NCBI GenBank assembly: GCA_943350395.1
Contig: CALRAD010000009.1
Coordinates: 1-44,550, forward strand
Origin: Candidatus Peribacteria bacterium
Lineage (GTDB): Bacteria > Patescibacteriota > Gracilibacteria > Peribacterales > Peribacteraceae
Direction of reading: 5' to 3'
DNA: 44,550 nucleotides
The notes under the pieces are model-generated. The model saw only the letters and a list, made by a program, of their open reading frames with translations. It did not search any database and was not told the origin of the DNA. The position numbers and the translations under genes were made by a program. This document shows, in pieces, positions 842 to 7,055 of this stretch (positions within the stretch are counted from its first letter, which is position 1; each line of letters opens with the position of its first letter).

Positions 842-878
842 CTATGAGTCATCTTTGCTTTCGCCTAAACTATGGTTG

Positions 879-3254
879 ATGAGCATCCCCGACTTCAAGC
901 AGTTCATCGGCAAGGACACCAAGGCGGTTCCGATGTCGCTTCAGAGAATCGCCGCTGCGAAACTTCCTGTGGAGCGGTACTGGATCGGGCCGGAGGATGC
1001 GGCAAAAATTTCAAAAGAGGAAGCCGATGCGTACAAGACTGCGCACGGCATCATGATGCGGCTCAGTATCGAAGCGCCACTCAAGCACAAATCGGGGCAT
1101 CCGGGCGGACCACTGTCCGCTTTCACGTTCTGTTACGAACTGTATCGTCACCGGAATCCGGAGTGCGACGAATCACTGCGCTTCAGTGCCGGTCATCTTT
1201 CGCTTCTTGCGTACAATCTGCAGTGGCTCTTCGGGAGAGATAGGGGAGATGCGCGCCTAGCTTCGCCGCAGGCAATCCTCGATACGTTCCGTACGGTATC
1301 CGGTCTTCCCGGACATGCGGAAGCTGGCATTGGCGATATTCCGTTCGGTTCAGGACCGCTCGGCAAAGGACCGTCGAATGCGCTCGGCAATGCATTCGGT
1401 CGCAAGATTCTCAAGAAGAAAGGCATTGTGGATGTGCTTCTTGCTGACGGAGACAGTCAGGAAGGACAAGTGCTTGAGGCATTTAGGCTCGCATCGCACT
1501 TGAAGCTCGACAATCTGATCGTTCACGGTGACTGGAACGACATTCAGCTCTCCGGAATTCCAAGTAAGACGATGGCGACGGATCTTGCGAGTATCGCAGC
1601 CGACATCGGTTTTGCCGTGATCGAAGTTCAAAACGGTAACGATCAGGCTCAGGTCGCTGCAGCAATCGAGAAAGCCGACAGTCTTGTCGGGAAAGGTCGT
1701 CCTATTTTCGTCTGCTACTACACGACGATGGGATCGGGTGTTGCGCTCATGGAAGAAGGATCGAATACGGGCAAAAAAAATTATCATGGTGCGCCTTTGT
1801 CCGAAGCCGAAGCGAAAACCGCACTCGATGCGCTGAAGTTGCCGACGATGGCGGAGCTCACAAAGTCGTTTGAGCCCGTGCGCAAAAAATATCAGGAGAA
1901 GTTTTCTGCAGCACTCAAGAAACGTTCAAGTCTTCGATTACCCTTCACACTTCCTGCCGCTTACAAGCGTGTAGTGACGAAGGAAGCAGGTGCGGCACGC
2001 AAGGATTTCGGAGCGGTGCACTTGAAGGCTCTTATGGCTGGCGATCCCCGTATTGTCGTTCTGCATGCTGATCTTGCCGATTCCGGTGGATTCGGAGCAG
2101 TCGAAAAGGTATTTCCGGATCGCGTCATCAATGTAGGAGTTGCGGAAGCAAACATGTACATGATGGCCGCGGGAATGAGGCAGGCAGGTCTCCTTCCTGT
2201 CACATACACCTTCGCGGCATTCGGCATGAACGAAGCAAGAGCGAATGCGCGTTTGATCGACGTGAATACGGGTCACATTCCTTTGGGTGTACTGCACGAT
2301 TGCACGCATGCGGGACTGAGTGTGGGCGAAGACGGCGAGACGCATCAGGAACGCAACTACGTGAATATCCCCTTCGATCACACGCAGGTGTGGGTGACGG
2401 GGGACAGCAATCAGGCGGCTGCGATGGCGGAGCGAGCAATGCAGATTATTGCAGCGGGAACCGAGAGCATTTATGTGTTCTCTGGACGGTCAAATCATCC
2501 TCAGTTACTGAATGCGGCAGGTGAACCGGTGTACGGCTTCGATTATGTCTTTGACGGTCGTGCAACGGTTGTGCGCGGTAGCGGCGATACGCGAGACCAG
2601 GCGACGATTCTCAGTTACGGCGCGGCACTGCATGAGGCGGTGAAGGCTGCAGATATTCTGTCTGCAAAAGATCGGACAGTACGCGTACTCAACGTCGGTT
2701 GTATCCGACCGCTGGATGCAGCAGCAGTGCTTCAGGCAGCACTCGAGACGCAGCACTTGATTGTCGTCGAAGATCACAACACTGAGGGAGGACTCGCGTC
2801 TCAGGTCGCCGATATTATCGCCGATCTTGCAGTACCGTGCACATTGCACCGCATGGGAGTTCGGCATTATTTCCCGTCGGGTCCGGCAGATCAGCTTATG
2901 GTTCTTGCAGGACTCGATGCCGAAGAAATCGCGAATGCGGTGGAAGATCAGTTCGCGTATCGACTTGCAGGGGGAGAAGAGGCATTCGTCGCGTGTTTGT
3001 ATGCACTTGCAACGCGAGTGCTGACAACACGTTTTGCCGTGAGTGCTCAGCCTTTGATCAAGCGATTGCTTATCGACCCCACATACATCAAGTCTCTCCG
3101 CGAATTCTGGAAAGCACGCGAGTACGATCGGAAACAATTGCCGACGAACGAGGAGTTGATTGCAGCTCTTGCTTCGGTTGTCGATACGACAGGCACGTTG
3201 AATCCACTCACGGGAACCGAGAGGGAGGTGCAGCAGGATATCGGGATGATTTGA
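879..3254 (+). CDS. tkt: Transketolase (enlarged, single chain)
   Basis: Thiamine-diphosphate enzyme moving two-carbon ketol units between sugar phosphates in the non-oxidative pentose phosphate pathway. Visible signatures: HKSGHPGGPLSA near the N-terminus, the ThDP/metal loop with GDSQEG followed by DNLIVHGDWND, KNYHGAPL, then in the pyrimidine-binding domain GVAEANMYMMAAG with the expected catalytic glutamate, and THAGLSVGEDGETHQ. From the ATG at 879 it is 791 residues, about 130 longer than common transketolases; the extra length is a C-terminal extension after residue 680. A TTG at 855 in the same frame is an alternative start. In CPR bacteria lacking oxidative steps this enzyme usually supplies ribose phosphate from glycolytic intermediates. 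Confidence 0.92.
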   Translation: MSIPDFKQFIGKDTKAVPMSLQRIAAAKLPVERYWIGPEDAAKISKEEADAYKTAHGIMMRLSIEAPLKHKSGHPGGPLSAFTFCYELYRHRNPECDESLRFSAGHLSLLAYNLQWLFGRDRGDARLASPQAILDTFRTVSGLPGHAEAGIGDIPFGSGPLGKGPSNALGNAFGRKILKKKGIVDVLLADGDSQEGQVLEAFRLASHLKLDNLIVHGDWNDIQLSGIPSKTMATDLASIAADIGFAVIEVQNGNDQAQVAAAIEKADSLVGKGRPIFVCYYTTMGSGVALMEEGSNTGKKNYHGAPLSEAEAKTALDALKLPTMAELTKSFEPVRKKYQEKFSAALKKRSSLRLPFTLPAAYKRVVTKEAGAARKDFGAVHLKALMAGDPRIVVLHADLADSGGFGAVEKVFPDRVINVGVAEANMYMMAAGMRQAGLLPVTYTFAAFGMNEARANARLIDVNTGHIPLGVLHDCTHAGLSVGEDGETHQERNYVNIPFDHTQVWVTGDSNQAAAMAERAMQIIAAGTESIYVFSGRSNHPQLLNAAGEPVYGFDYVFDGRATVVRGSGDTRDQATILSYGAALHEAVKAADILSAKDRTVRVLNVGCIRPLDAAAVLQAALETQHLIVVEDHNTEGGLASQVADIIADLAVPCTLHRMGVRHYFPSGPADQLMVLAGLDAEEIANAVEDQFAYRLAGGEEAFVACLYALATRVLTTRFAVSAQPLIKRLLIDPTYIKSLREFWKAREYDRKQLPTNEELIAALASVVDTTGTLNPLTGTEREVQQDIGMI

Positions 3255-3255
3255 T

Positions 3256-3465
3256 TTATGGATTTGGGTACGATCTTCTGTTGCACGAAATTTGACAGGC
3301 ATTCAAACATTCGTCGATCGTCGCATACTGATTCCCGAGCGACAGTCTTGCACTGATCACACCTGTGAGCTGCAACATCTGCAGCGATACGAAGATGACA
3401 AGGCAGACGAGAATACAGAGCTGCAGCCAATTCTTCCGGATCGTTGATTGCTGTGGCTTAGGCAT
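3256..3465 (-). CDS. Mini-paralog of the subtilase N-terminal module
   Basis: A 69-residue protein: short basic N-terminus, one transmembrane helix or uncleaved signal (about residues 13-36), then ARLSLGNQYA and a spaced cysteine motif, CLNACQISCNRR. The same module opens the large subtilase upstream, which has ARLSLGNQYA followed by CINACQISCQRR. The DNA is also almost identical across this stretch (near 3325-3352 against 6248-6275), so this is a recent partial duplication kept as a separate frame. It starts 22 bases after the stop of the subtilase gene on the same strand and is probably cotranscribed. No known family; it may be a functional partner or a duplication remnant. Confidence 0.6.
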   Translation of the reverse strand: MPKPQQSTIRKNWLQLCILVCLVIFVSLQMLQLTGVISARLSLGNQYATIDECLNACQISCNRRSYPNP

Positions 3466-3486: not shown

Positions 3487-6393
3487 TTAAGGGCAGAGAG
3501 TCCAACCGTACGGAGAGGGGTTGGCAACAGGATCTGCGCTGAAGCATGCTCGCTGACCATTCTTCTCAAAACATCGCGGCCACAATACTGTGCCACGACC
3601 AAATGGCCATAGGAATGCACCCGTACAGTCAGTGCTGCCTGCTGGAATGCAGCGTCCAAAATGCCCACAGCGGAATTGGCTTAAATCGATTTTGCACCCT
3701 AGGGAGGAAAAATCTGGCTCGTGCGCACAGGTGTAGGGCGCAGCACCCGCAGAACCGGGAGAGCCAGTTGATCCTGCCGATCCACTCGATCCTGCTATCC
3801 CAATTGATCCAGTAGAACCAGAGGATCCTGTGAACCCGATTGATCCAGTAGAACCAGAGGATCCGGGTACGGAAGAAGCAATAGAGCTACTCGATACCGA
3901 ACAAGAACCTCCTCCCGTACAAGAAATCTTTCCTATTTTATTTCCGGAGTACTCTGTAAACCAAATATTTCCATTCGGTCCCTGTGTAATTCCTGCAGGA
4001 CCGCTGCCCGCGGTCGGGATCGTAAATTCGGTGATGGTACCGCTCGGTGTGATTCTTCCTATTTTATTGACATTCCGTTCGGTAAACCACAGATTGCCAT
4101 CGGGCCCTGTGGTAATTCCGGTGGGATGACTGTTCGCTGTTGGAAGGCTGAACTCCGTCAGAGTGCCGCTCGGCGTGATTCTTCCGATTTTGTTTACATT
4201 CTCTTCTGTAAACCAAAGATTGCCATCGGGTCCCGTGGTAATGACAGTAGGATTACTTACCGGTGTGGGAAGAGCAAACTGAGTCACGGTGCCACTCGGT
4301 GTCATTTTTCCGATTTTATTTCCACCTCCGTCTGTAAACCAAAGATTGCCGTCCGGTCCCGTCACAATACCGAAGGGAGCGCCCCCTGTTGGGAGGGTAA
4401 ATTCGGTGATGGTGCCGCTTGGTGTGATTCTTCCGATTTGATTTTCATTTGTTTCCGTAAACCAAACATTGCCATCGGGCCCCGATGTAATCCCCGTAAG
4501 AGCAAGATAGCTGCCGGCTGCTGGAACTATAAATTCGGTCACGGTACCGGTCGGAGTGATCCGCCCTATTTTATGTCCGAATAATTCTGTAAACCACAGA
4601 TTCCCGTCCGGTCCGGTGACAATATCCCACGGGGTACCCGCTGTCGGAATGCCGTACTCGGTCACGGTGCCACTTGGGGTGATTCTCGCGATTTGATGTG
4701 TGTTTGCTTCCGTAAACCACACATTGCCATCGGGACCTTTGGTGATGCCCGCGGGAGAGGCATTCGCTATTGGAACCGGATATTCGGTGATCACATTCCC
4801 ATTGCATACAATCGTTCCTCCGCAGGAAGAAGTGGAAGCAGAACTGCCGCCGGAAGAATTGCTTCCTCCTGATGAAGAGGAAGAAGTACTACTAAACATC
4901 TTCCCGATGTTCAAGCGTCCGTTGCTTACAACTTTTGTTTGCAGAACAGGAAGGACATCAACGGATGCGAGTATTTTTTGTTTTACATTCAGATAACCGA
5001 GAGAGGAATTGGTATTCCACAGCAGCACCGCAGCTCCGGCTACATGCGGAGTTGCCATTGAGGTGCCGCTGAGTAAGCCATAGTTATTTCCGGGCAGCGT
5101 ACTGTAGACATCGACACCAGGAGCAGCCAGATCTACAGAAACTGCTCCGTAGCAACTGAATGCTGCAAGCGCGTCACTGCGATTGGTCGCAGCGACAGCG
5201 ATGATGTTGTCATGGGTGAAGGAACCAGGGTAGATCGGCAGAGTATCATTATTGGTACTGTTGTTTCCTGCTGCAGCAACGAAGAGATTGCCTTGGTTCT
5301 TATTCGCCGTGATTGCATCGGAGATTGCCTGGGAGAATGTGGGAAGACCCCAACTGTTGCTTGTCACCTTAAAACCCATTGTCGTTGCATAATTGATTGC
5401 TTCGACGGCATCACTGACATTACTGCTACCGTCCGCTTTCAGAAACTTTAACGCAGCGACCTTTGCTCTCCAGTTCACACCAGCAATTCCGACACTGTTA
5501 TTCCCCACTCCGGCGATGGTCCCCGAGACGTGTGTCCCGTGACCATTATCGTCCATGGGGTTGCTGTCATTATTCACGAAATCATAGCCATGCACATCAT
5601 CGATGTATCCATTGCTGTCATCATCGATGCCATTCCCGGCAGTCTCGCCGGGATTTGTCCAGATGTTGGCCGCGAGATCAGGGTGATTGTAATCGATGCC
5701 CGTATCGAGGACTCCCACAACAATGCCGGTTGCAGATCCTGTCGTCGTATTCCATGCTTCCGGAGCGTCGATGTCGGCATCTGCAGTACCGCTGCTCTGA
5801 CCGGTGTTATGGAGACCCCACAATTGGCCGAAGGAAGAATCATTCGGGTTGATGAAGACGGATACCGTGTAGTCTGGTTCGGCGTACTCAACTCGGGGAT
5901 CGCTCTGCAGACTCGTGGCAATAGTTCTCGGATCATCACTGTTACTGATTTGAGTAACGTACAGGCGATCCAAGCCTGCTCCCTCCATGAACGACCGTGT
6001 CGTAGTCTGGGAGGAATCTTGGAACAACTTCGTGCTATTACTCAGCCTATATTGGTTCAATAATGCCGTATCAAAGGCATAACCCTGCTTCATCTTGATC
6101 AGGATGCGGTCCGATGCATAGCTATTGGCCGATAGGAGAGAAGAGACACTTGAAGTGTTGAAGCTGGGCGCAGGCGAGGAGGACAGCTGGGTATAGCGCC
6201 TCTGGCAGGAGATCTGACAGGCATTGATGCACGCATTGACGTCCGCATACTGATTGCCGAGCGAGAGTCTTGCGGATAGGGCGCCCGAAAAGAACAGGCG
6301 GCTCTGCAAAATCAGGGACAAAACAAGTAAGCCAAGAATCGAAAACGGCAACCAGTGCTGCCGAATTTTTGAAGATCGATTCTTACGAGCCAT
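3487..6393 (-). CDS. Exported subtilisin-like protease with propeller, collagen-like and Cys-rich domains
   Basis: A 968-residue mosaic surface or secreted protein. Residues 14-37 form a signal/anchor helix, then the ARLSLGNQYA...CQISC module (41-65) and a fervidolysin-like propeptide region (about 95-180). The peptidase S8 domain has its complete catalytic triad: Asp230 in VLDTGIDYNHPDL, His285 in NGHGTHVSG, Ser445 in SGTSMATPH, with Asn377 as oxyanion residue. A Ser/Gly-rich linker (500-523) leads to seven repeats of about 42 residues carrying GPDGNLWFTE and NKIGRITPSGT (535-830), as in seven-bladed Vgb-type propellers. Then come 14 Gly-X-Y triplets (about 844-885) and an 83-residue C-terminus with eight cysteines. 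The protease is predicted active. The propeller alone does not make it a streptogramin lyase; it more likely binds a ligand. Confidence 0.9.
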   Translation of the reverse strand: MARKNRSSKIRQHWLPFSILGLLVLSLILQSRLFFSGALSARLSLGNQYADVNACINACQISCQRRYTQLSSSPAPSFNTSSVSSLLSANSYASDRILIKMKQGYAFDTALLNQYRLSNSTKLFQDSSQTTTRSFMEGAGLDRLYVTQISNSDDPRTIATSLQSDPRVEYAEPDYTVSVFINPNDSSFGQLWGLHNTGQSSGTADADIDAPEAWNTTTGSATGIVVGVLDTGIDYNHPDLAANIWTNPGETAGNGIDDDSNGYIDDVHGYDFVNNDSNPMDDNGHGTHVSGTIAGVGNNSVGIAGVNWRAKVAALKFLKADGSSNVSDAVEAINYATTMGFKVTSNSWGLPTFSQAISDAITANKNQGNLFVAAAGNNSTNNDTLPIYPGSFTHDNIIAVAATNRSDALAAFSCYGAVSVDLAAPGVDVYSTLPGNNYGLLSGTSMATPHVAGAAVLLWNTNSSLGYLNVKQKILASVDVLPVLQTKVVSNGRLNIGKMFSSTSSSSSGGSNSSGGSSASTSSCGGTIVCNGNVITEYPVPIANASPAGITKGPDGNVWFTEANTHQIARITPSGTVTEYGIPTAGTPWDIVTGPDGNLWFTELFGHKIGRITPTGTVTEFIVPAAGSYLALTGITSGPDGNVWFTETNENQIGRITPSGTITEFTLPTGGAPFGIVTGPDGNLWFTDGGGNKIGKMTPSGTVTQFALPTPVSNPTVITTGPDGNLWFTEENVNKIGRITPSGTLTEFSLPTANSHPTGITTGPDGNLWFTERNVNKIGRITPSGTITEFTIPTAGSGPAGITQGPNGNIWFTEYSGNKIGKISCTGGGSCSVSSSSIASSVPGSSGSTGSIGFTGSSGSTGSIGIAGSSGSAGSTGSPGSAGAAPYTCAHEPDFSSLGCKIDLSQFRCGHFGRCIPAGSTDCTGAFLWPFGRGTVLWPRCFEKNGQRACFSADPVANPSPYGWTLCP
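3798..3864. repeat. Direct repeat encoding the Gly-X-Y stalk
   Basis: A 26-base unit at 3803-3828 recurs without mismatch at 3839-3864, a period of 36 bases or 12 codons. It encodes the repeated GSSGSTGSIG segment of the collagen-like region of the subtilase. Such a perfect coding repeat is prone to slippage, so the number of Gly-X-Y triplets may differ between strains. Confidence 0.7.
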
Positions 6394-6438: not shown

Positions 6439-6966
6439 CTACAAATTCTTTTCCTTCGTCACGCCATCGCTCACGATGATCGGATGCCGGTCGATGAAGA
6501 TCGATACGTAGAACCTCTTGATCATCTCCGTCGAGGCGGCAAGAAGCTCGCTGATGAGAGAGCTGAAGCGGCGGATTTTTCGATAGAGCTCGCTCAGCAT
6601 GTACGCGGAACCCGGGCTTTGAGATTTCGAGAGTTTCTTCGCTTGCTTCTCAACGATGCGCACTTCTCTGCGGATGTGCTCGACGAGTTTTTGCTGCATG
6701 ATCGCCGGAGTCGGGATCTTTGCGATTGCTTCGTCTCTCGCTGTCGTTCCTGTCTGCGTTGCACCGGCACCCGTAGCGGCTCCGCCGGACACGGGCAGGT
6801 CTCCGCGCTTGTCTTCACGTACGCGACTCGCGACTGTTCCCATCAAGTCGATTACTTCGACGATCTCCCGGAGTTTCGGCGGTTGAAAAACCTTGTCCGA
6901 GACGGCATTAGGGCTCTTTGTGATCGTGCTCTTTGGTGTTTCTGCGCTGAGGCTTACTCCGTCCAT
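6439..6966 (-). CDS. Unknown cytoplasmic protein
   Basis: From the ATG at 6966 it encodes 175 residues without signal peptide or membrane span. The first half is Ser/Thr/Pro-rich and low in complexity with a Gly/Ala/Thr stretch; the second half (from about residue 80) is helical and basic with KLVEHIRREVRIVEKQAKKL, suggesting a coiled coil. I do not recognise a family. A frame extension to 7044 is open but would place the start upstream of the promoter, which has a -10 of TACAAT ending nine bases before the ATG. It is downstream of, and divergent from, the HIT gene. Confidence 0.6.
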   Translation of the reverse strand: MDGVSLSAETPKSTITKSPNAVSDKVFQPPKLREIVEVIDLMGTVASRVREDKRGDLPVSGGAATGAGATQTGTTARDEAIAKIPTPAIMQQKLVEHIRREVRIVEKQAKKLSKSQSPGSAYMLSELYRKIRRFSSLISELLAASTEMIKRFYVSIFIDRHPIIVSDGVTKEKNL

Positions 6967-6975
6967 AATGTTACT

Positions 6976-7004
6976 ATTGTAGCTTATTTTGGCGGAAAAG
7001 TCAT
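6976..7004 (-). promoter_or_regulatory. Promoter of the unknown gene at 6439-6966
   Basis: On the minus strand ATGACT and TACAAT are separated by 17 bases. The -10 ends nine bases before the ATG at 6966, so the transcript would have almost no leader. This is why the internal ATG is chosen over the longer frame. Confidence 0.5.
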
Positions 7005-7055
7005 TCTTGCCTTGTGTGTTTTGCTCTAGAATCGGGTCATTCATTCCCGTTTTCT

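Follow-up and report, generated by a model that had tools for sequence, protein, structure and literature searches.

The window, a stretch of 44,550 nucleotides from a Candidatus Peribacteria bacterium (contig CALRAD010000009.1), carries on its reverse strand an ATG-initiated gene (3487..6393) for a predicted secreted S8 protease of 968 amino acids that continues into a propeller, a G-x-y linker, and a Cys-rich cap. The syntenic site in which it lies is bounded by a convergent transketolase gene (855..3254, forward strand) and, upstream, by a gene for a 201-amino-acid protein (6439..7044, reverse strand) that is conserved in the family and has no assigned function. Since both flanks are syntenic with those of two congeneric genomes (G001 and G002), the gene is not an artifact of a contig edge. 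A 69-amino-acid open reading frame (ORF) (3256..3465, reverse strand), 21 bases directly downstream of the protease gene, is a tandem paralog of the protease N terminus (56% over 64 residues) and repeats the export segment and a C-x3-C-x3-C module alone. Its appearance suggests either a tandem duplication whose product persists as a small secreted or membrane protein, or a second protease gene of which this is the remnant. Matches to the N-terminal Cys module in other genomes were weak (E above 0.007) and were taken as chance.

All features of the protein are on the reverse strand. Hydropathy analysis identified a putative export segment at residues ∼14 to 37 (6283..6354), with its hydrophobic center at residues 17 to 35 and a Kyte-Doolittle maximum of 1.97. 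The C-x3-C-x3-C mini-module follows at residues 40 to 67 (6193..6276), then a propeptide at approximately residues 91 to 178 (5860..6123; boundaries inferred from model confidence and alignment with solved pro-subtilisins) and the S8 catalytic domain at approximately residues 184 to 500 (4894..5844). A profile search matched Pfam Peptidase_S8 at residues 222 to 478 (E value, 3.8e−55), and the columns of the catalytic residues Asp230 (5704..5706), His285 (5539..5541), and Ser445 (5059..5061), together with the oxyanion Asn377, were invariant in the S8 alignment. Residues 85 to 835 were modeled; pLDDT was ∼90 over most of the propeptide, and model residues 10 to 420 (protein residues 94 to 504) aligned with solved pro-subtilisins. 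As the pTM of this model was 0.58, the placement of the propeller relative to the protease was not used. Given the S8 fold, the retained triad and oxyanion Asn, and the modeled propeptide, the S8 domain is likely to be proteolytically active. The original prediction of a hydrophobic N terminus, a propeptide, and an S8 domain with intact Asp, His, and Ser was thus borne out by the profile, alignment, hydropathy, and structure searches.

The solved structure closest to the S8 domain was deseasin MCP-01 (3vv3; sequence search E value, 1.2e−99), to which the model aligned over 314 residues with a VIA Z of 49, an rmsd of 1.6, and 51% identity; the VIA rows span the protease half, and the propeller was assigned from Foldseek and sequence. 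Deseasin MCP-01, from Pseudoalteromonas, is likewise a secreted multidomain protease with this catalytic domain, but its accessory domains are a P-domain and PKD, whereas the window protein has a Vgb propeller, a G-x-y linker, and a Cys-rich cap instead. No other S8 match was identified in the window genome. Alignments that combined S8-only with Vgb-only rows were misaligned and were dropped. In the S8-domain tree, the window protein grouped with its G002 counterpart (100/100) and apart from other S8 proteases of the same family, while its placement among other phyla was unresolved. Transfer of the S8 gene from an unplaced donor is possible.

A Ser-rich linker of low model confidence (residues 501 to 523; 4825..4893) leads to a seven-blade Vgb-type propeller (residues 524 to 831; 3901..4824). 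It matched Vgb_lyase (PF24684; E value, 1.4e−118) and carried seven GPDGNxWFT repeats and 28 modeled strands, and in Foldseek it aligned to virginiamycin B lyase (2z2o) with a TM score by target of 0.80 and 45% identity. The predicted seven-repeat propeller was therefore confirmed, and structure prediction recovered both the S8 and the Vgb folds. With such a strong family match the propeller could work as a streptogramin-type lyase, which would make the protein bifunctional, but this is extremely improbable. In Vgb the catalytic His270 (2z2n), which acts with His228, lies in a P-H-G-I motif that reads P-A-G-I in the inactive H270A mutant (2z2p), and alignment placed His228 at the same position one blade earlier. 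At the corresponding P-H-[AG]-I position the seven blades of the window propeller carried A, W, T, F, V, T, and A, leaving none with the catalytic His, and the NCBIfam Vgb cut-offs were missed (338 versus 600 bits). The propeller is predicted to be a Vgb-type fold devoid of the Vgb active site, and as the catalytic His is missing from every blade, it is probably a binding or spacer module. The binding role originally proposed is plausible in this respect, and any ligand is putative. The propeller also differs from Vgb in being embedded in a protease and in the Cys pairs at its edges (C524 and C530; C825 and C831), a feature common to a separate Vgb protein of G002 (L032). A simple scan found Cys at both edges in two of five patescibacterial propellers and in 0 of 25 from other phyla, a small sample.

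Beyond the propeller, 14 unbroken G-x-y triplets (residues 844 to 885; 3739..3864), encoded over a 36-base tandem repeat at the DNA level, precede an 83-residue C terminus with eight Cys; both counts agreed with the original prediction. That the triplets form a collagen-like stalk, as was also predicted, is doubtful. Their consecutive arrangement resembles bacterial collagen-like proteins, weak matches to Scl models were obtained, and a second protein with the same cap also has triplet repeats. A triple helix would imply that the protein trimerizes at the surface and bears a knob held by disulfide bonds. However, the 28 X/Y positions comprised 14 Ser, five Ala, four Thr, three Ile, one Phe, and one Pro, with neither the proline nor the charged pairs expected of a stable triple helix, and the Pfam Collagen gathering score was narrowly missed (26.6 versus 27.2 bits). 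Bacterial collagens contain 20 to 40% Pro, and triple helices may fail in short stretches (PMC4565658). Ser-rich linkers lacking G-x-y are also used by other proteins of the family. The trimeric stalk is thus rather improbable, and the scarcity of Pro and absence of charge compared with the published 20 to 40% Pro make a flexible Gly-Ser linker the more likely form of this stretch.

The C-terminal cap (residues 886 to 968; 3490..3738) had no match in Pfam or the PDB. A second copy was found in the window genome (C4:9281-9520) at the end of a 413-amino-acid protein with a weak matrixin match (L003 1498-2739, reverse strand), where it follows nine G-x-y triplets forming a G-S-x linker. The two caps share 48% identity, seven Cys in register, and a strongly conserved end; these were the only two carriers in the genome. 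The matrixin-like protein carries the motif QEIGHSLGLDH, with Q-E-x-G-H in place of H-E-x-x-H, and may be inactive as a protease. In relatives from G002 and another genus the motif reads QEVGHTFGLDH, and their C termini have neither linker nor cap. Because these two relatives from other species share it, the Gln replacing the first zinc-ligand His reads as a family trait rather than decay, and the cap tail as an addition. The adjacent 192-amino-acid protein (L003 2733-3311, reverse strand) contains EF-hand-like and DUF4215 stretches, and its end (...ERDLGNGKK...) resembles the ends of cap-less matrixin-like proteins elsewhere (...ERDLGKGQK...).

Searches of IMG/VR, of 144 relatives and 380 genomes from the phylum (two sets that overlap), and of 43 genomes of other phyla (a search run without a positive control) yielded no cap homologs outside the window genome, so that the C terminus, when sought among candidate phyla radiation genomes, was found in this genome alone, twice. 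A match in G019 fell in a noncoding frame of an efflux-type gene and was rejected as chance; one in G091 was weak (E value, 0.0096) and contained stops. A cap model built from the two sequences had a pLDDT of 45.6 and was set aside. The cap is small and probably held by disulfides. In our reading it is a lineage-specific module at the C terminus of secreted proteases that serves in their attachment or stability, which accords with the published variation of Cys-rich extracellular proteins in Peribacteria.

Comparison of the syntenic site across the genus placed the added modules in context. Between the transketolase and 201-amino-acid genes, G002 encodes a 567-amino-acid S8 protease (L004 1384-3087) that shares the N-terminal hydrophobic segment, propeptide, and S8 domain with the window protein (67% identity over residues 84 to 553). 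It differs in having no C-x3-C-x3-C module, propeller, G-x-y stretch, or cap; its C terminus consists of a Ser-rich linker followed by a short tail rich in Cys. In G001 the site is empty and the flanking genes abut. The 201-amino-acid protein of the window is 86% identical to that of G001 versus 73% for G002, making G001 the nearer by neighboring genes. The three congeners thus show three states: an empty site, an S8 protease ending in a short Cys-rich tail, and an S8 protease extended by propeller, linker, and cap. The simplest history, provisional with three genomes, is that the ancestor of the genus already had the protease, that G001 lost it, and that the window lineage extended it. The matrixin-like protein was also absent from G001 (a 93% complete genome). 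Neither of the two genes bearing the cap in the window genome thus occurs in G001, suggesting a joint loss of secreted proteases. The Vgb propeller of G002 sits in the separate protein with DUF4215 repeats, and the only Vgb propeller of the window genome is that in the protease. The congeneric gene versions, the second cap, and the 69-amino-acid copy of the N terminus had all been missed by the original prediction.

The combination of domains had been called unusual. Its exact order was identified in no other genome searched, and literature searches returned no description of S8 joined to Vgb. The pairing itself is known elsewhere, as an ORF of Betaproteobacteria bacterium UKL13-2 (L098) also places a Vgb-type propeller after an S8 domain. 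That S8 is distant (long branch), an ASH/Cep192-like domain lies between the two, FG-GAP repeats follow, and there is no cap; it is an independent occurrence. Ig-like, FG-GAP, and dockerin domains are found on other patescibacterial S8 proteases, and the window combination is part of this wider pattern of varied C-terminal domains on modular S8 proteases. One of them (L068 1096-4347, forward strand) has FG-GAP repeats and a dockerin after its S8 domain, another S8-plus-propeller design. The protease by itself is ordinary and its parts are mostly known; the cap is the unfamiliar piece.

We consider it rather probable that the gene encodes a modular, Sec-exported S8 protease with a non-lyase propeller, a flexible linker, and a portable C-terminal cap for retention or stability, which would digest proteins outside the cell. 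The N-terminal segment would take the protein into the membrane by Sec export, and the propeptide would fold, inhibit the S8 domain, and then be cut off by it. As the export segment precedes the propeptide, normal subtilase maturation would sever the enzyme from it, and with this anchor lost, any retention at the cell would have to reside in the C-terminal part. The mature protein would run from an endopeptidase through the Cys-bracketed propeller and the Gly-Ser-x linker to the disulfide-held cap. Linker and cap would constitute a portable module that this lineage also placed on the matrixin-like protein, the cap keeping secreted proteases attached to the envelope or stabilizing them outside. 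Attachment or stability is favored for the cap because the anchor would be lost and because linker and cap recur on a second protein predicted to be secreted. With two carrier proteins, retention by the cap is something we infer, and anchoring through an uncleaved N terminus could serve instead.

A stronger form of this proposal, that the G-S-x linker and cap are an undescribed envelope attachment or export module that arose in one patescibacterial lineage and reached two unrelated secreted proteases by transfer inside the genome, is offered tentatively and is in itself unlikely. A possible, though not probable, alternative is a plain secreted digestive protease whose propeller and cap bind substrate or stabilize the enzyme, with nothing held at the cell. 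Accessory C-terminal domains are common in subtilases, the G002 congener manages without propeller and cap, and the C terminus (...PSPYGWTLCP) has no sortase signal, lacking an LPxTG-like motif, a hydrophobic stretch, and a basic tail, even though sortases are encoded in the genome. Against this, an unrelated protein bears the same linker and cap, which suggests that their function is not tied to any one substrate. The cap could also act as a C-terminal export or sorting signal for a dedicated machinery, comparable in position to the C-terminal signals of other secretion systems, as its ∼83 residues occupy the extreme C termini of two unrelated predicted proteases and end in a strongly conserved sequence. 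Such signals usually mark many proteins, whereas the genome has two carriers; each carrier has a hydrophobic export segment at its N terminus, and both relatives in G002 lack the cap, which makes a sorting signal very doubtful. For the favored modular exported protease, the likely role would be to supply amino acids by digesting proteins outside the cell. Dependence of Peribacteria on outside proteins for amino acids has been inferred previously (PMC4736985).

These observations bear on how patescibacteria lacking most amino acid synthesis obtain amino acids and hold on to partners. The single site in three congeners (empty, simpler protease, propeller plus cap) offers a natural series for the function of added modules, and the cap is a small candidate envelope-retention domain in a lineage with few known. 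What is new here is the three-state comparison of the site and a cap found only in the window genome, on two unrelated proteins. Large extracellular proteins rich in Cys were previously reported from Peribacteria; they differ between close strains, and one of them is annotated as a lactonase (PMC4736985). The window protein is similarly Cys-rich, predicted to be exported, and variable between close relatives, but the published proteins are mostly larger and were not described as proteases with this domain order.

The same family also encodes Cys-rich proteins with Ser linkers that contain several Vgb propellers. A run of very large extracellular proteins of this kind was observed at L034 (G025 C12, 3206-16096), where two have Vgb propellers and DUF4215-like repeats and one of 1,236 amino acids terminates with a hydrophobic stretch followed by a basic tail. 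In-frame TGA was identified in matched genes of genomes in the class of the window genome, which fits GTDB Gracilibacteria. A motif resembling S-L-T-[GA]-x-[LV] directly follows the N-terminal hydrophobic segment in secreted proteins of this family, namely those of L032, L004, and L034 and the window protein, and is possibly a signal peptidase site.
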